From NCBI GenBank assembly GCA_026392455.1, contig JAPLCB010000011.1, positions 186,001 through 250,000 on the forward strand: a stretch of DNA of 64,000 nt. The letters are read 5' to 3'. The notes beneath the pieces were generated by a model that worked only from the letters and a program-made list of their open reading frames with translations, ran no database searches and was not told where the DNA came from. This stretch comes from Propionibacteriales bacterium (GTDB taxonomy: Bacteria > Actinomycetota > Actinomycetes > Propionibacteriales > Nocardioidaceae). The position numbers were made by a program, and so were the translations under genes. Shown here piece after piece: positions 4,050 to 13,417 of the stretch. Position 1 is the stretch's first letter. Every line of letters starts with the position of its first letter.

Positions 4050-5819
4050 CTACCGCAGCGCAGCCAGGTACGCCCGCCAGCCGCCGTGGCTGGTCACGTC
4101 CCGGGCGCCGTCGAGAGCGACCGGCTCGCAGATGAAGCCGTGCACCCGGGATCCGTCGACCAGGGAGAGCTCGCCGAGCCCGAGCGGAGCCCGCACGGTC
4201 GCCAGGAAGGACCCGATCTGGGCCGCCGGCAGCCGGTAGACCTCGACCTCGATCGCGGCGCCGCCCGCGACCACCCGGCGCAGCCCGGGCTTCGGCGGAA
4301 TCGTGTCCGGCAGGGCGAACAGCCGGTAGTCCGGCGACGTCGTGGTCCGGGCGATGAGCCGCGCCCCGCGGTCGAGCAGGTCGCGGTGAAGCGGCATCCC
4401 CGCCAGGTGCGCCCCGACGACGGCCAGGTCCAGCTCGGTGGTGTCGGGATCCCCGGGACCGTCCGTCCCCCCCTGCTCACCGGTGACCGCGGCGGCCCAC
4501 CCGAGCAGCTGCGCGTCCCGCCCGGCGGCCGCCTGCAGGCTGACCCCGAACGGGATCCCGGCACCGGTCAGGCCGGCCGGTACCGCGACGGCGCACAGGT
4601 CGAGCAGGTTGGTGAAGGTGGTGAACCGACCCAGCCGCTCGTTGGTGACGATCGGGTCGGCCAGGACCTCGCCCACGGTGAAGGTCGTCGTGCACGTCGG
4701 GGTCAGCAAGGCGTCGAAGCCGTCCAGCACCGCGTGGGCAGCGACCCGTCGCCGCGCCATCGCCGCCATCGCGGCGAAGACCTCGTCCCCGGTGATCGCC
4801 GGCGCCGGCGCCATCAGGGTCCGGATCACCGGCAGCACGGCCTCCGGATCCTTGGCCAGCAGCTCGGCCATCACCTGGTGCCGCTCGGCGAGCCAGGCGC
4901 CGCCGTAGAGCTCACGCCCGGCATCCAGGAAGTCAGTCAGGTCCAGCGGGACCAGGACGGCACCCCGGCTGACCAGGCCCGCACAGAACTCTTCCCAGGC
5001 CTCCCGCTCGCCCCGGGTCCCCCAGTCCTCCACGGTGCGCGGGACCGCGAACCGCGCGCCGTCCAGGGCCAACCGCGCGGGAACGGCGCCCACGGTCGGT
5101 AGCCGCCGCGACAGCGGGTCCTCCGGGTCCGGCCCGACGATCAGCGACCCGACCAGCGCGCTGTCCGCAACGGTCAGGGAGAAGACCGAGGGGCAGTCCA
5201 GCGAGCGGCACGCGGGCACGACGCCGTCGGCGCTGATCAGACCGATGCTCGGCTTGAGACCGACCACGCCGTTGAGCGCCGCCGGCACCCGGCCGGAACC
5301 GGCCGTGTCGGTGCCGATCGCGAACGTGACCAGGCCCGCAGCGACCGCGACCGCCGAGCCCGAGCTGGAGCCGCCCGAGATCAGGCCGTTGCCGTAGACC
5401 GACTCCGGCACGCCGTACGGCGACCGGGTGCCGTTCAGCCCGGTGGCGAACTGGTCGAGGTTGGTCTTGCCGACCAGGATCGCTCCGGCGTCCAGCAGTC
5501 GCCGCACCAGCAACGCCGACCGCTCCGGTGCGTAGGCGAACCCCGGGCACGCCGCGGTGGTCTCCAGACCGGCGACGTCGACGTTGTCCTTGACCGCGAA
5601 CGGAATGCCGAGCAGCGGCAGCGCGTCGAGCTGGTCGAGGTCGAGCGAGGCCGCTCGGTCGCGCACCTCCCCCGGGTCGACCAACGAGATCCAGGTGCCG
5701 TCCTGGCCGCGTCGCCGGATCCGGTCCAGGACCTCGTCGACGACCTCCAGCGGCGTCAGCGAACCGTCGCGGTACCCCCGGCGCAGGACCTCGACGGACA
5801 GCCGGGCCGACCCGGTCAT
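4050..5819 (-). CDS. atzF: allophanate hydrolase (amidase domain plus C-terminal domain)
   Basis: Amidase-signature Lys ([11 protein letters not shown]) and [16 protein letters not shown]-terminal domain typical of AtzF-type enzymes; ATGA overlap with the upstream gene. Confidence 0.85.
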
Positions 5820-6523
5820 GCGGCCGCGGCAGCAGCCAGGCTCGCCAGCAGAGCCGAGGACGGAGCGATCGCACCGAAGACACCGCCCTGCATCGTGACC
5901 ATCTTCAGTGCGGCTTCGTAGTTGCCGACGTCGGTGGCGCCGGTGCAGTCGGTGAGCAGCAAGCACTCGTAGCCGCGGTCGTTGGCGTCACGCATGGTCG
6001 TGTGCACGCAGACATCGGTGGTGATGCCGGTGAAGATCAGGTGGGTGATGCCGGCGGTCCGCAGCACCAGGTCGAGGTCGGTGGCGTAGAACGAGCCCTT
6101 GCCCGGCTTGTCGATGACCACCTCGCCGTCGATCGGCGCCACCTCGGGAACGATCTCCCAACCGGGCTCGCCACGGGTGAGGATCCGGCCGCACGGGCCG
6201 CTGGAACCGATACCGGCGCCGATCTGCTCCGAGCGCCACTTCTTGTTCGGCGGCAGGTCGGACATGTCGGGCCGGTGGCCCTCGCGGGTGTGGATGATCA
6301 GCAGCCCCGCGTCCCGAGCGGCGTGGAGCACCTTCTGGGTCGGCAGCAGGCCGGCCCGGGTCAGGTTGAGGTCGTAGCCCATGGCGTCGACGTACCCGCC
6401 CGGACCGCAGAAGTCGACCTGCCAGTCGATGTTGATCAGGGCGGTCCGCTCGGGAGCGAACGAGCCGTCGTAGGGCCAGGTGTAAGGCTCGGCAGGGACC
6501 GGGCCGAAGGTCGTCGAAGTCAT
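5816..6523 (-). CDS. isochorismatase-fold cysteine hydrolase, biuret hydrolase (BiuH)-like
   Basis: [72 protein letters not shown] and C all present; coupled to allophanate hydrolase. Confidence 0.85.
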
Positions 6524-6535
6524 GGTTGGGCCTTT

Positions 6536-7135
6536 CTAGAGCGCGGAATGCGCGGATGGGAAAGCGTCGAGGACGGCGGCGGTCTCCCCGACCGCACCGA
6601 AGATCCCGCCGGACATCTCCACCTGGGACCGGGCGGAGCCGACGAGGTCGACCTGGTAGGCGACGCACGCGTCGAGGACCAGCAGGCACTCCAGCCCGCG
6701 GTCGTTGGCCGAACGCATCGTGGAGTGGATGCAGGTCTCGAGGCCGGCCCCGGCCAGCAGGAGATGGTCGAGGCCACCCTCGCGGAGCAGGGTCTCCAGG
6801 CCGCTCTCGTAGAACCCGTCGATCCCCCGCGAGGTCAGCACCGGGGTCGCCGGCGTCCCCATCGCCGCCAACGGGGCACCGAGCTCAGGGCCGAGCGCGG
6901 CGGGCGGTGGTGCGGTCACCACCTGGATGACCGCACCACCGGCAGCGAGGACGACATCGACGAGCGAGCGGAGCCGGTCACCGGCACCGGTGCCCACCAC
7001 CGAGAGGCCCCGGCCCGGACCGAGGACCACCAGGGCCGTCCGGGTCGGATCGAGCTGACCACCCCAGGGCCACGCGTACGGCGTCGTCCCGGCGACCAGG
7101 CCTGCGGCCGGACCACGCGCCCTCGATGTCGTCAT
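6536..7135 (-). CDS. isochorismatase-fold protein paralogous to the adjacent gene, probable pseudoenzyme
   Basis: Aligns with the neighbour (YAWPWGG...P.RTAL; ETCIHSTMRSANDRGLECLLVLDAC), but the catalytic Asp and Lys positions are replaced. Confidence 0.8.
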   Translation of the reverse strand: MTTSRARGPAAGLVAGTTPYAWPWGGQLDPTRTALVVLGPGRGLSVVGTGAGDRLRSLVDVVLAAGGAVIQVVTAPPPAALGPELGAPLAAMGTPATPVLTSRGIDGFYESGLETLLREGGLDHLLLAGAGLETCIHSTMRSANDRGLECLLVLDACVAYQVDLVGSARSQVEMSGGIFGAVGETAAVLDAFPSAHSAL

Positions 7136-7142
7136 CGCCGGA

Positions 7143-8282
7143 CTACTTCACCGAACCGATGACGCCGTCGACGAAGTAGTCCATCGCGTCGTTCTCGGCG
7201 TAGGTGGGCACGACACCGGCAGCAACCTGCTCCTTGCCCTTGTTGTCCTTCAGCGGCCCGACGAACGGGGACCCGTCCGGCGTCGCCAGGAACGCCTTGG
7301 CGGCCTCGATCTTCGCCTTGGTGTCGTCACTGACCAGCGGGCCGTACGGCGCCAGCACGAACGGGTTCGTCCCGGTCTTGAAACCGACCCGGTAGTTGGC
7401 GTTGAACTCGCTGCCGACGAAGGTTCCGTCGATGACCTTCTGGACCAGCTGCTTGTAGAGCGGGCCCCAGTTCCAGACCGCTCCGGTGAGCCAGAGATCC
7501 GGCGTCAGCGCGGAGGCATCGGCGTGGTACCCGACCGTCATCGCCCCGGCCTCCTTCGCCGTGTTGATCACCGTGGCGGTGCAGTCCTGGTGCTGGGTGA
7601 GCACGTCGGCGCCGGCCTTCAGCAGCGCAGCTGCCTTGTCCTTCTGGGCGCTCGGGTCGCACCACGAACCGGTCGCGGCGGTGATCGTCTCGACGTCGGG
7701 GTTGACGCTGCGGGCACCGCGCTCGAAGGCGTTGATGTTCGCGATCGTCTGCGGGATCGGGAAGGCGTACACGTAGCCGAGCTTGTCGGACTTCGTCGAG
7801 GCACCGGCGGCGATCCCCGCGAGGTACATCGGCTCGTACACGGTGCCGAAGTAGGTGCCCATGTTGGGCGGGACGTCGGTCGTGATCGTGTTGCCCTGCT
7901 GGAGCACGATCACGTCCGGGTGCTTCTCGGCGACCTTGACCGCCGCATCCAGGTGGCCGTAGCTGGTCGCGAAGATCAGCTTGGCGCCCTTGCTGATCAT
8001 CTGCTCCATGGTGGTGGCCGCGGTGTCGTCCTCGGGGACGTTCTCCGCGGTGAGGATCTCCACGTCCGGGAAGTCGGCCTTCAACGCCTGGCTGCCCTCG
8101 TAGACGGCCTGGTTGTAGCCGTAGTCGTCCTTGGGGCCGACCATGATGAACCCGATCTTGGTGACGCCCTTGCCGGCATCGTCCTTGACGTCGGATCCGC
8201 TCTCCGACGCCGAGGCACATCCGGACAGCGCGGCGATCAGGGCGAGCCCTGCCAGCAAGGCGGTAGTTTTGCGGTTGGACAT
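7143..8282 (-). CDS. BMP-family ABC transporter substrate-binding lipoprotein
   Basis: Lipobox LIAALSGC; KIGFIMVGPKDDYGYNQAVYEG; start at MSNRKTT with upstream purine-rich SD. Confidence 0.9.
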   Translation of the reverse strand: MSNRKTTALLAGLALIAALSGCASASESGSDVKDDAGKGVTKIGFIMVGPKDDYGYNQAVYEGSQALKADFPDVEILTAENVPEDDTAATTMEQMISKGAKLIFATSYGHLDAAVKVAEKHPDVIVLQQGNTITTDVPPNMGTYFGTVYEPMYLAGIAAGASTKSDKLGYVYAFPIPQTIANINAFERGARSVNPDVETITAATGSWCDPSAQKDKAAALLKAGADVLTQHQDCTATVINTAKEAGAMTVGYHADASALTPDLWLTGAVWNWGPLYKQLVQKVIDGTFVGSEFNANYRVGFKTGTNPFVLAPYGPLVSDDTKAKIEAAKAFLATPDGSPFVGPLKDNKGKEQVAAGVVPTYAENDAMDYFVDGVIGSVK

Positions 8283-8417
8283 GAGTTTCCTCTCGTGTTC
8301 GACACTGCACCGGGCGAACAGAGTTTTCGAGGCTTGGTCGCCTGGTGCGGTGGTCATTTCCAGGCTGCGCGGAAGGGCCCGTGCAGCAGTGGTTCGTGTT
8401 CCGGGTGAGCTGCCCCC

Positions 8418-9344
8418 TTAACCGGTCTCGGCGTTCTCGAAGACCTTCTTCAGCTCGGCCGGCGAGGACGACAGCGTCCGCCGCCCGATGACCGTCAGGA
8501 CGACGAGGGTGAGCACGAACGGGAGCGCCTGGAGCAGGAACTGGTTCACCTCGTACCCGCGTGCCTGGAGGGCGCTGCCGAGCGAGAGTGCGCAGCCGAA
8601 GAGCCAGGCACCGGCCATCACCCGGACCGGGCTCCAGACCGCGAAGATCACCAGGGCGACCGCGATGAAGCCCTTGCCCTGGATCATGTTCTCGCGCCAG
8701 GCGTTGGCGTACCCGATCGACAGGTACGCCCCACCGATACCGGCCAAGAACCCGCCGCAGGTGACGGCCAGGGTGCGCAACCAGGGCACGCTGTAGCCGT
8801 GCACGGTCAACGTCTCGGCGCGCTCGCCGGCCGTCCGGACCAGGAGACCGATCCGGGTCTTGAACAGGGCGAACCACACCACCGGCACCGTGACGAAGCC
8901 GAGGTAGACCAACGCGTTGTGCTCGAAGAGGATCTGGCCGACCACCGGGAGGTCGTGCAGCACCGGGACGTTCCAGACGTCGAACGCGTGGTCCAGCTTC
9001 TTGCCGGACCCGACGTACTTGACGCCGAAGAGCGCTGTCAGACCCAGGGCGAGGAACAGCACGGTCAGCCCGCTGGCCATCTGGTTGGCCCGCCGCCAGA
9101 CCACCAGGAAGGCGTGCACTGCGGCTAGCGCGGCACCCGCGATGCCGCCGACGAGGACCCCCGTCCACGGGCTCCCGGTCTCGACGGCGACGACGTAGGC
9201 CCCGAGCGCACCCGCGAGCATGCTGCCTTCGATCCCCAGGTTGATCACCCCGGCGCGTTCGCCGATCGTCTCGCCGAGGGCCGCGAACATGATCGAGGTG
9301 CCGCCGGCGACACCGGCTGCGAGGACATCAACAGGCAGACTCAT
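8418..9344 (-). CDS. ABC transporter permease (BMP/nucleoside-type)
   Basis: ALGETIGERAGVINLGIEGSMLAGAL motif of YufQ/BmpC-like permeases. Confidence 0.9.
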   Translation of the reverse strand: MSLPVDVLAAGVAGGTSIMFAALGETIGERAGVINLGIEGSMLAGALGAYVVAVETGSPWTGVLVGGIAGAALAAVHAFLVVWRRANQMASGLTVLFLALGLTALFGVKYVGSGKKLDHAFDVWNVPVLHDLPVVGQILFEHNALVYLGFVTVPVVWFALFKTRIGLLVRTAGERAETLTVHGYSVPWLRTLAVTCGGFLAGIGGAYLSIGYANAWRENMIQGKGFIAVALVIFAVWSPVRVMAGAWLFGCALSLGSALQARGYEVNQFLLQALPFVLTLVVLTVIGRRTLSSSPAELKKVFENAETG

Positions 9345-10441
9345 ACCTTCGCCTTCCTAGGTGTGGTGAAGCCGAGGACTGCCATCAGGATCAAGGCGGT
9401 CAGGACGTAGATCGCGTAGCCCGGGATCTGCGAGTCCAGCTGGAGGCTGTCCTTGGCGACCGACAACGTGGCCATCAGGAACGCGCCGAGAAGGATCGGG
9501 AACGGGCGTTGCCGGGCCAGCCAGCAGACCAGGAACGCGGTGTAGCCGATCTGGTACCCGAAGCTGTCGCGGAGCTTGTACTCGGTACCGGCGAAGATGA
9601 TCATTCCCGCGACGCCGGCCAGGGCACCACCGATCATCAACGCCGAGAGCACCAGCTTGGGGACGTTGAGCCCGGCCCGCCGGGCCGCTTCGGCGTTACC
9701 GCCCGCCACCGAGACCTGGAAGCCCCACCGGGTCCGGGTCAGGACCACGGCGACCAGCACCGTCAGCACCAACGCGATCACGATGCCGACGTTGATCCGG
9801 CTGCTCGCGGTGAGCAGGGGCAGCTTCGCGCCGTCGACCAGCTCGGCGGTGGCCGGCTGACCGGTCGGCGACTCCCGCCAGGACTGGTAGATCAGGTAGA
9901 GCAGCACGTTCAGCGCGACGAAGTTCAGCAGCAGCGTGCTGATCGCCTCGTTGACGCCGGCGAACAGTCGTAGCGCCGCGGCGATCCCGGCCCAGAGCGC
10001 ACCCGCAAGCACGGCGGCGAGGAGCATGCCGATGATCAGCACTCCGCCCGGCAGGTCCTCCCCGAGCAGGCGGGTGGCTCCGCAGGCGGCGACGCCACCG
10101 ATGATGATCTGTCCCTCGCCGCCGACGTTGGTCAGCCCGGCCCGCGCCGGCACCGCCACCGCCAGAGCGCCGAGCACCAGCGGCGCCATCCGGATGAAGA
10201 TCTCGTCGATCGAGGTCTGCTGGCCGAAGGCCAGCCGGAACATCGCCGCGTACGCATCGAGCGGGTTCGCGCCCTTGATCATCAGCAGGATCCCGAAGAG
10301 GGCCAGGGCTCCGGCAAAGGCACCCACCCAGCGGGCGGTCACGAGCAGGGCCCGCTGGGCTCCGGCACCGGTGATCGCCGGCACCCGCTTGCGCGGCGCG
10401 GCCTCGACCGGGCTCGTCGGCGGTTCGATCAGGGTCGTCAT
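9341..10441 (-). CDS. ABC transporter permease (BMP/nucleoside-type)
   Basis: [19 protein letters not shown] motif; 4-bp overlaps with both neighbours. Confidence 0.9.
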
Positions 10442-11949
10442 GCCGCACCTCCGGTCATCAGCTCGCCGATGCTGGAGCGGTCGAAGTCGACCGGGAAGAC
10501 CTCACCGGTGATGTGGCCGTCCCGCATCACCACGATCCGGTCGGCCATCGACATCAGCTCGTCGAGGTCCTCGGAGACCATCAGCACGCTGGCACCTTCC
10601 TCGCTCCGCTGCAGCAGCAGCTCCTGGGTGCGGCGGGTGTTGGCGATGTCGAGCCCCCGGCTCGGGTAGGCCGCGACCACCACGGTGGCGTCCAGGGCCA
10701 GCTCCCGGGTCAGGATCACCCGCTGGATGTTGCCGCCGGAGAGCTCGGCGACCTTGCGGCCCCGGGGCGCGATGTTCAGGCCGAGGCGCTCGTTGCTCTC
10801 GTCGGTCACCTTGTCGACGGCCCGCCAGTTGATCCCGAGACCACGACGGGGCAGCTTGCGACCGTGCAGCACCATGTGGTTGAGCACGGTCAACGGGCCG
10901 ACCACCGAGTCCGCCACCGGGTCCTCGGGGATGCTGGCCGCTCCGGCGGCGATCGCGTGCACCGGGCGGCGTACGTCGGCGCCATTGACCGTCACGGTCC
11001 CCGACTCCACTGCCCGGAGACCCAGGATGGCCTCGCAGAGCTCGCGCTGACCGCTGCCGGCGACCCCGGCCACCCCGACCAGCTCACCGGGCCTGACCAC
11101 CAGGTTCACCCCCTTGAGGGCGACGTGGCCGGCGTCCCCGCGAGCGACCACGTCGACGAGCCGGATCGCCGAGTCCCCGTCGGCGATGGTCCGGTCGGCG
11201 CGGTCGAGGTCGGCGACGGCGCGGCCGACCATCGCCTCGACCAGCTCGCCGTTGGTGTACTCCGACGGGTCGACGTTCACCAGGACGGTGCGGCCGCCGC
11301 GCAGCACGGTCGCCCGGTCGGCGATGGTCCGGACCTCGTCGAGCTTGTGGGTGACGATGATGATCGCGAAGCCCTGGTCCCGCAGGTGCTTGACCACGCC
11401 GAGCAGCGCCTCGACCTCCTGGGGGGCCAGGACGCTCGTCGGTTCGTCCAGGATGACCAGCCGGGCGCCGGTCATCAGCACCTTGAGGATCTCGACGCGC
11501 TGGCGCTCCCCGATCGACAGGTGCGACACCTTGGCCGCCGGGTCGACAGCGAGCCCGAACTCGTCACTGGCCTTCTTGATCCGCACGGCCAGGTCCTTCA
11601 GCTTGAGGAACTGACCTTCGGCCACCGCCAGGGCGACGTTCTCGGTGACCGTCAGTGCCGGCACCAGCCGCAGGTCCTGGAAGACCATGCCGATGCCGTA
11701 CTTCCGGGCATCGGCGGGGCTGTGGACCGGCGCCTCCTTGCCGTCGACCATCAGCTGGCCGGAGTCGGGCGTGTAGACGCCGTAGATCATCTTCAGCAAC
11801 GTGCTCTTGCCGGCACCGTTCTCGCCGACCAGTGCGTGCACCTCGCCCGCGTTCACGGCGAGGTGCACGTCGGTGTTCGCCTTGACCTCACCGAAGTGCT
11901 TGGTGAGGCCGAGCACCTCGAGCCGCGGTGGCGTGTCCTTGATACTCAT
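10438..11949 (-). CDS. ABC transporter ATP-binding protein (two NBDs)
   Basis: [42 protein letters not shown]; second [17 protein letters not shown] and [11 protein letters not shown]; start MSIKDTPP. Confidence 0.92.
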
Positions 11950-12668
11950 CCGTTTCCTCCTGCTCGGCGGGCTCGTACGGCGCGCTGACGCATGGCGTCG
12001 GCGGCTCGCTGTTCGACGACGGTGAGAGACGCTCCGATGTGGTCGGCCAGCCGGGCTGCGGCCAGCGGCACATCGCCCTCGAGCAGGGCGGCCACGATCG
12101 CCAGGTGCTCCGACGTGCTGGTGACGATCCGGTCCTCGGTCAGGAAGTCGTAGAGCCGCACCTGGCGGATCCGGACGTTGATCGACTCCAGGGTCTCCAC
12201 CAGGGCCAGGTTTCCCGACGCCCGGGCAAGCTCGGTGTGGAACACCTCGTCCAGCGCGATGAAGGAGCCGTCCGGCGGCGGCGGGTCCGCCTGGATCTCC
12301 TGCCACTCCTCGCGCAGCGCCAGCAGCACCTCGCGGTCGTGCTCGATCCCGTCCTCGGAGGCCCGGTTGACCGCGCGCAGCTCCAGGGTGAGCCGCAGCT
12401 CGTAGAGGTCCCGGAGGTCGAGCAGGTCGATCTCGGCGACGTAGTAGCCGCCGTCGGCGAACCGGTGCAGCAGCCGGTCCGCGTGCAGCCGGACGAAGGC
12501 CTCACGGATCGGCGTTCGGGAGACGCTGAGCTGGTCGGCCAGCTGCTCCTCGCCGAGCCGCTGGCCGGTCGGGAACTCGCCGAGCATGACCATCCGACGG
12601 ATCGACAGGTACGCCTGCTCGCGCAACAGCTGACTGTTGGCTCGCGTCCGCTTCACCTTCGCCGGCAC
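11946..12668 (-). CDS. GntR-family transcriptional regulator (FCD/FadR type)
   Basis: Wing-[27 protein letters not shown] followed by an all-helical C-terminal domain; overlaps the ATPase start. Confidence 0.9.
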
Positions 12669-12716: not shown

Positions 12717-12790
12717 GCTGTATCCAGATTGTTTCGGGCTACCGCGACCCACGTAACGACTCTGTGAACCCGTGGAGGTTAGATCGGCCC

Positions 12791-13417
12791 ATGAACACTG
12801 CCACCCCGAGAGTGCTGGCGCTCCACGGAGTCGCCACGAATGCCGCGATCTGGCACGAACTACCTGATCTCCTTCCAGGCATGGAGATCGTGGCTCCCCA
12901 GCGCCCGTGCAGCGGGGACCTGGAGGTGGAGCTGGCTGCTCTGGTCGAGCTCGCTCGGGACAGCCTGGTGGTCGGGTTCAGCGGCGGCGCCACCCTGGGT
13001 CTCGCGCTCGCCTCCCGGGTTCCGCTGCGTGGCGCCCTGCTGCACGAGCCCGCGGTGGGCTCGCTGGTGCCGGGGCTGCTCGCGCCCGTGCGGGCCGCCT
13101 TCGACCGCGATGGCACTGCCGGTTTCGCAGCGGCGCTCTACGGCCCGACGTGGGTAGCACCTGCCGAGGTCGACGACGCGGTGACGGCCCGGGAGCTGAC
13201 GATGTTCCGCGCCTTCGAACCGCAGGGCCCGCTCCCGGGTCAGGGACCGGTCGTGATCACCTACGGCGAGCACTCCCCGGCGATCCGCAAGCAGGCGGCC
13301 GAGGCGCTGCGCGACCAGCTCGGCTGGTCGATCGAGGAGCTGCCCGGGTCCGGCCACGACGTCGTGCACCAGAACCTGGCGGGGCTGGCAGCACGGTTGG
13401 TGCGACTCGGGACCTAG
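12791..13417 (+). CDS. alpha/beta hydrolase
   Basis: LALHGVATNAAIWHEL; nucleophile elbow VGFSGGA; C-terminal GSGHDVVHQN; ATG at 12764 is an alternative start. Confidence 0.8.
   Translation: MNTATPRVLALHGVATNAAIWHELPDLLPGMEIVAPQRPCSGDLEVELAALVELARDSLVVGFSGGATLGLALASRVPLRGALLHEPAVGSLVPGLLAPVRAAFDRDGTAGFAAALYGPTWVAPAEVDDAVTARELTMFRAFEPQGPLPGQGPVVITYGEHSPAIRKQAAEALRDQLGWSIEELPGSGHDVVHQNLAGLAARLVRLGT

Follow-up and report, generated by a model that had tools for sequence, protein, structure and literature searches.

A conserved, apparently dead paralogue encoded beside biuret hydrolase in actinobacteria, and its possible role as a partner subunit

In biuret hydrolase (BiuH), an active site is not completed by a single polypeptide chain. 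Gln215 is supplied to it by the other subunit of the dimer, and replacing this residue by alanine raises KM more than 25-fold; the enzyme assembles into tetramers, in which the subunits also meet at another, smaller interface (PMC5806882). In TrtA, Q202, the equivalent of Gln215, is likewise donated by the other subunit. Here, triuret is told from biuret by where Q202 sits, which depends on I205 (V218 in BiuH) and on a network of water molecules involving E160 (D173 in BiuH). According to the authors of that work, it has yet to be explained how the position of Q202 evolved and how it shifts the specificity from one of these substrates to the other (PMC7948467).

Non-catalytic subunits are also known to assist catalytic ones. 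In a related pathway, AtzG is a non-catalytic but obligate subunit of the carboxybiuret amidohydrolase AtzE (PMC6219798). Further afield, the trypanosome AdoMetDC prozyme, itself dead, is described as pairing with its live paralogue to give a functional heterodimer (PMC5201418).

The operon and its dead paralogue

The stretch of DNA analysed here (the window) comprises 64,000 nucleotides from a Propionibacteriales bacterium. It carries, in the order of transcription, genes for a GntR/FCD regulator, an ABC ATPase, two permeases, a BMP/PnrA-type binding protein, a BiuH paralogue (called the pseudoenzyme below), BiuH itself, and the allophanate hydrolase AtzF. The regulator gene (11946..12668, minus strand; PF00392 and PF07729) is the first of the cassette and is conserved in orthologous loci. 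It is followed, on the same strand, by the genes for an ATP-binding protein with two nucleotide-binding domains (10438..11970; PF00005 twice), permease 2 (9341..10441) and permease 1 (8418..9344), both PF02653, and the BMP/PnrA-type substrate-binding protein (7143..8357; PF02608), which stands upstream of the pseudoenzyme in all loci with available sequence. An alpha/beta-hydrolase gene (12764..13417, plus strand) diverges from the regulator gene, and its homologues recur in many loci. They are equally divergent from GntR in four others (L051, L052, L023, L024); in about 11 further loci, an alpha/beta-hydrolase gene stands either downstream or in the interval from the BMP gene to the pseudoenzyme. 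These hydrolases may be a further component of the pathway.

Towards the far end of the cassette, BiuH (5816..6523, minus strand; 235 amino acids) scores 416 bits against the equivalog NF050097, above its cut-off of 370. It holds the complete triad, Lys145, Gln215 and Val218 (residues are given in RlBiuH numbering), the last two within the MQGGVFG loop (5873..5893, minus strand). Its closest solved structures are the biuret hydrolases 6xjm (1e-118) and 6azo (5e-104). AtzF (4050..5831, minus strand) combines an amidase with an AH_C domain (PF01425 and PF21986) and scores 669 bits against TIGR02713 (cut-off 511).

Between the binding protein and BiuH lies the pseudoenzyme gene (6536..7135, minus strand), which encodes 199 amino acids from an ATG start in an intact frame and is single-copy in its genome. 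BiuH starts 12 bp further downstream, at 6523. The pseudoenzyme matches Pfam Isochorismatase (PF00857) with 56 bits against a gathering cut-off of 27, over its C-terminal half only; against NF050097 it reaches 93 bits, below the cut-off of 370. An isochorismatase fold is predicted, with core pLDDT mostly above 90 in the AlphaFold model and an alternating beta/alpha order. When homology to GatC or AtzG was sought by family search, the isochorismatase family was the sole match.

The original prediction had placed a BiuH-like paralogue without Asp and Lys 12 bp upstream of BiuH, and the alignments that it quoted are right in substance. It had, however, read the change at the N-terminal side as two substitutions. 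The absence of Asp and Lys stands; the extent does not, as the mobile loop and most of the lid are deleted as well. Its remark that the Cys is kept describes the copy in the window, where Cys135 (codon 6731..6733, minus strand) occupies the position of the catalytic Cys175, but fails as a feature of the family, of which only five of 34 members have it.

What the family has lost and kept

Searches of genomes with the protein, and then with profiles, delivered 34 pseudoenzyme sequences, including that of the window, with a mean identity of 43%. The systematic search for orthologues covered actinobacteria; viral contigs and plasmids were also searched. Pseudoenzymes were told from BiuH by the first profile, which was matched end to end by the former and mainly over its C-terminal half by the latter. 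The orthologues come from the window's own family and from other actinobacterial orders, including Demequina, Pseudonocardiales and an Actinomycetales MAG. A D/K-less paralogue beside BiuH, which the prediction had suggested seeking in other actinobacteria, is therefore found across them, and a recent loss in a single strain is ruled out by the spread over several orders. Viral contigs searched with the pseudoenzyme alignment held no relative, and plasmids gave only C-terminal matches of the BiuH/TrtA type, none over 80% of the query.

In a tree with BiuH, the pseudoenzymes form one side of a long branch (length 2.6, support 100/100). They evolve faster than BiuH, whose mean identity is 79%. 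For the closest pairs, dN/dS (NG86) is about 0.25-0.6 for the pseudoenzymes and about 0.05-0.25 for BiuH, and lies below 1 in each pair computed. The higher ratio is what a decaying pseudogene or neutral remnant would lead one to expect; the value below 1 in every pair is not, and neither is a family whose 34 members, spread over several actinobacterial orders and 43% identical on average, all have intact frames and share a six-residue block that never varies. Decay is thus exceedingly improbable, being refuted by the conservation pattern. The pseudoenzymes are shown, as far as comparison of sequences can show it, to be a monophyletic family of BiuH paralogues under purifying selection, one that retains the fold and the trans loop. 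The earlier view of a conserved pseudoenzyme, rather than a decaying gene, is on this evidence a solid reading.

What has been lost is nearly everything by which BiuH performs its chemistry. Asp36, Lys142 and Lys145 are each present in none of the 34 pseudoenzymes, and none has Thr at the position of the oxyanion residue Thr171, which is mostly Gly. The position of Cys175 holds Cys in five, Pro in 11, Thr in eight and Ala in seven, with Gly, Ser and Leu in one each. Hence no member has the Asp-Lys-Cys triad (0/34, 0/34 and 5/34 for its parts), or the BiuH contacts Lys145 and Gln215. The corresponding TrtA set, the triad D24/K129/C162 with Q202, is likewise absent, so the standard TrtA role that had been called unlikely for the window copy is rejected for the protein alone, in all 34 orthologues. 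Deletions also account for the mobile loop, at RlBiuH 46-55, and for the greater part of the lid, at about 90-128.

The missing residues might, of course, have been replaced by others elsewhere, making the protein a true enzyme of different chemistry with a relocated active site. Glu133, Asp145, Glu149 and Asp155 are strongly conserved and would be available to such a site. These acids, however, are the structural ones of BiuH (the positions of Asp173, Asp185, Glu189 and Asp195). Across the family, an alternative conserved Lys, or a conserved acid near the position of Asp36, was sought and none was found; any of seven residues may stand where the nucleophile stood; and the lid of the substrate pocket is gone. 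A relocated triad, which the prediction had named as something that could overturn it, is not visible in the pattern of conservation, and an enzyme of this kind is very unlikely.

What has been kept is the N-terminal PYxWP motif, helix alpha4 (STxRxANDRG) and the loop 215-220. The last is the counterpart of the loop that BiuH and TrtA donate in trans (M-Gln215-G-G-Val218-F-G in BiuH); in the window it reads MSGGIFG (residues 174-180; 6596..6616, minus strand). It is SGGIFG in all 34 pseudoenzymes versus QGGVFG in all 30 BiuHs, so that Gln215 has become Ser and Val218 has become Ile without exception. Compared pairwise, the pseudoenzymes are on average 93.8% identical over the loop region (214-222), versus 31.8% over the segment of the former catalytic Asp; in BiuH, the same two regions give 94.8% and 79.4%. 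Because BiuH conserves GGxFG as well, this part of the motif must be partly structural, and the points specific to the pseudoenzyme are therefore Ser215 and Ile218, which show zero variation. Two residues are of the TrtA type: Ile at the position of I205 in 34/34 and Glu at the position of E160 in 33/34. The helices of the dimer have fared less well, alpha5 being poorly conserved (33%) and alpha2 missing, and this counts against a pairing with BiuH.

Ser also occurs at the position of Gln215 in a lone BiuH-like protein with a full triad (L055:8906-9562, loop MSGGVFG), a candidate for an altered substrate.

Evidence on a partnership with BiuH

The pseudoenzyme adjoins BiuH throughout, with stop and start codons overlapping by 4 bp in at least 14 loci. 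In two loci, both in draft assemblies, pseudoenzyme and BiuH share one uninterrupted frame (L089:8265-9851, 529 amino acids; L131:6970-8370, 467 amino acids), although an open frame is not a proven fused product; the two pseudoenzyme halves are 29% identical. An internal ribosome-binding site and an ATG precede BiuH in L131, and free BiuH may therefore be made there too. The BiuHs that adjoin pseudoenzymes have the triad, Lys145 and Gln215 in 30 of 30 cases. Because Gln215 is retained, BiuH homodimers must still matter, and presumably function beside any hybrid. In genome G1143, the BiuH beside the pseudoenzyme is matched as two gapped pieces (L124:8207-8662), which may reflect a frameshift, an assembly error or a recent loss.

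The natural read-through of the window tandem (pseudoenzyme, TAG, four codons, BiuH) was folded with AlphaFold from 32 alignment rows, in which in-frame tandems stood beside single pseudoenzymes and the two ORFs that have both proteins in one frame. The mean pLDDT was 84.9, with the pseudoenzyme core mostly above 90, and the pTM was 0.60. This pTM means that the relative placement of the two well-folded halves is not confidently predicted. An earlier tandem model, from four rows, had a pLDDT of 63.8 and a pTM of 0.52, and its Foldseek matches were mainly to the BiuH half. An alignment that mixed single and tandem rows set all single pseudoenzymes on the BiuH half and was left out of folding.

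A second line of evidence comes from the company that BiuH keeps. Among 397 genomes of one order, which were searched for BiuH (counted at 72% identity or more) and for the pseudoenzyme, 29 have BiuH. The pseudoenzyme without TrtA was found in 25 of these, a TrtA-like gene without the pseudoenzyme in the other four (G818, G847, G920 and G949), and both or neither in none. The best PDB match of the TrtA-like proteins is TrtA (3e-77). Three of the four genomes, those in which the upstream flank is present, have the same transporter-BiuH-AtzF operon. TrtA-like genes follow AtzF in this BMP-transporter operon, in the pseudoenzyme's stead, at L133:5915-6580 (minus strand), L134:4531-5187 (plus strand) and L170:10769-11431 (plus strand). 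All but one of the four genomes fall within a single genus, of which another member, G973, has the pseudoenzyme; perhaps, therefore, two independent switches have occurred. The pattern of exclusion in these sequences appears strong, though built on few independent events. Such a pattern would be expected of a pseudoenzyme that meets the same need as TrtA.

These observations bear on whether BiuH is touched at all. The pseudoenzyme might instead be an independent ligand-binding homodimer, its SGGIFG loop closing the vestigial pocket of its twin, and serve as a carrier, sensor or accessory of the transporter. Its gene is directly downstream of that of the BMP protein and is found only with this transporter cassette: where flanks can be read, the order is regulator, ATPase, permeases, BMP protein, in some an alpha/beta-hydrolase, pseudoenzyme, BiuH, and the BMP transporter cassette is also missing from eight loci that have BiuH or a TrtA-like gene but no pseudoenzyme. 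The conserved loop and Glu133 could, moreover, line a pocket. Such a homodimer would not, however, call for single open frames with BiuH or a strict BiuH neighbourhood, and its occurrence would hardly be complementary to that of TrtA, an enzyme rather than a part of a transporter. This alternative is accordingly judged improbable, while a partnership with BiuH in some form is probable.

The operon also says something about the substrate. In described pathways, the usual source of biuret is cyanuric acid hydrolase. This enzyme is missing from 34 of the 35 operon-bearing genomes, and cyanuric acid is therefore unlikely to be the natural substrate in most of them. The sole pseudoenzyme genome that has it, G1067, carries it (PF09663, 360 bits) on the contig that also bears the operon (contig 5, L172), at a distance of about 17 kb. 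The likely role of the BMP-type transporter is to take up biuret, triuret or a different ureide directly. Downstream of BiuH stands AtzF or an AtzE-like amidase, with an AtzH-like gene in some loci. AtzH-like genes near such operons were noted at L089:11343-11864, L131:5080-5433, L084:13521-13880, L086:15182-15538, L119:1923-2303 and L121:1532-1903. In these loci an AtzE-like amidase usually replaces AtzF, and a carboxybiuret branch without AtzD or TrtA is possible. TrtA converts triuret to carboxybiuret; for this reason, AtzE- and AtzH-like homologues, with their putative activity, would fit an upstream step of the triuret type. In Pseudomonas ADP, AtzE and AtzH act on carboxybiuret and dicarboxyurea (PMC6219798).

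A proposed hybrid site and known systems

A heteromeric partner of BiuH is placed ahead of the other options because of the trans-loop signature, the in-frame ORFs and the mutual exclusion with TrtA. Here, the pseudoenzyme would pair with BiuH, probably by the large dimer interface, where in BiuH and TrtA each protomer completes the active site of the other. The SGGIFG loop of the pseudoenzyme would enter the active site of the live BiuH, bringing Ser and Ile where the homodimer has Gln215 and Val218. Biuret would thereby lose the glutamine that holds its far end, and the pocket would be opened. Hybrid sites could accept a longer or different ureide, for instance triuret or a substituted biuret; biuret itself would continue to be hydrolysed at BiuH/BiuH sites. 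The loop would have been kept in a dead subunit because, serving the active site of the partner, it is the one part needed.

The elements of this proposal are not equally secure. That the pseudoenzyme acts through its trans loop is plausible, if a little short of an even chance. A triuret-like specificity of the hybrid site is a tentative suggestion, and the same caution applies to the view that a dead subunit alters the substrate of its live paralogue, the homodimer taking biuret and the heterodimer triuret or another ureide, in functional replacement of TrtA. As a whole, a non-catalytic BiuH partner that donates a Ser/Ile loop and so changes specificity is the best explanation, with about an even chance of being right.

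A partner need not donate anything, of course. The pseudoenzyme might regulate or stabilize BiuH, for instance by joining it, as a dimer, in a mixed tetramer, raising its solubility or activity, or sensing a ureide in the vestigial pocket. Adjacency, in-frame ORFs and overlaps suit a partner role of any kind; the BiuH tetramer offers its second, smaller interface; BiuH homodimers probably persist, Gln215 being kept; and there are precedents in AtzG and in the AdoMetDC prozyme (PMC5201418). By itself, however, such a role leaves unexplained why the trans loop is the sole invariant block and why Ser and Ile are fixed, and four operons of the same order, together with many lone BiuHs, manage without the pseudoenzyme. 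Regulation or stabilization alone is rather unlikely.

The open-access literature that was searched holds no description of such a protein, and a search of the literature for pseudoenzymes in the isochorismatase superfamily returned nothing relevant. Should the proposal be true, a pseudoenzyme that retains exactly the residues for its partner's site, and none for its own, would make a mechanism readable from sequence. The trans loop unchanged and the catalytic residues gone suggest a dead subunit that re-tunes a live nitrogen-scavenging enzyme. The 34 natural Ser/Ile loops beside Gln/Val BiuHs make the question of the trans glutamine in specificity directly testable, and the analysis also describes, in actinobacteria, an ABC-transporter operon for the scavenging of ureide nitrogen.

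Among known systems, BiuH (NF050097; PDB 6azo, 6xjm) is clearly homologous to the pseudoenzyme, sharing the fold, the PYxWPY motif, helix alpha4 (STMRxANDRG) and the GGxFG loop; the pseudoenzyme differs in being without Asp36, Lys142, Lys145 and usually Cys175, in the deletion of lid and mobile loop, and in having Ser and Ile for Gln215 and Val218. TrtA (PDB 6xix, 6xje) shares with it the Ile (I205) and the Glu (E160), and in this operon context either gene can take the place of the other; TrtA, however, has the triad and Gln202 and is enzymatically complete, and the pseudoenzyme is nearer to BiuH in sequence. The prozyme has an unrelated fold and relieves autoinhibition, whereas the pseudoenzyme is proposed to donate an active-site residue in trans. 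The likeness to AtzG would be one of working, a small non-catalytic subunit beside an amidohydrolase; AtzG shares its ancestry with GatC rather than with the enzyme that it partners, whereas the pseudoenzyme is a dead paralogue of BiuH itself.
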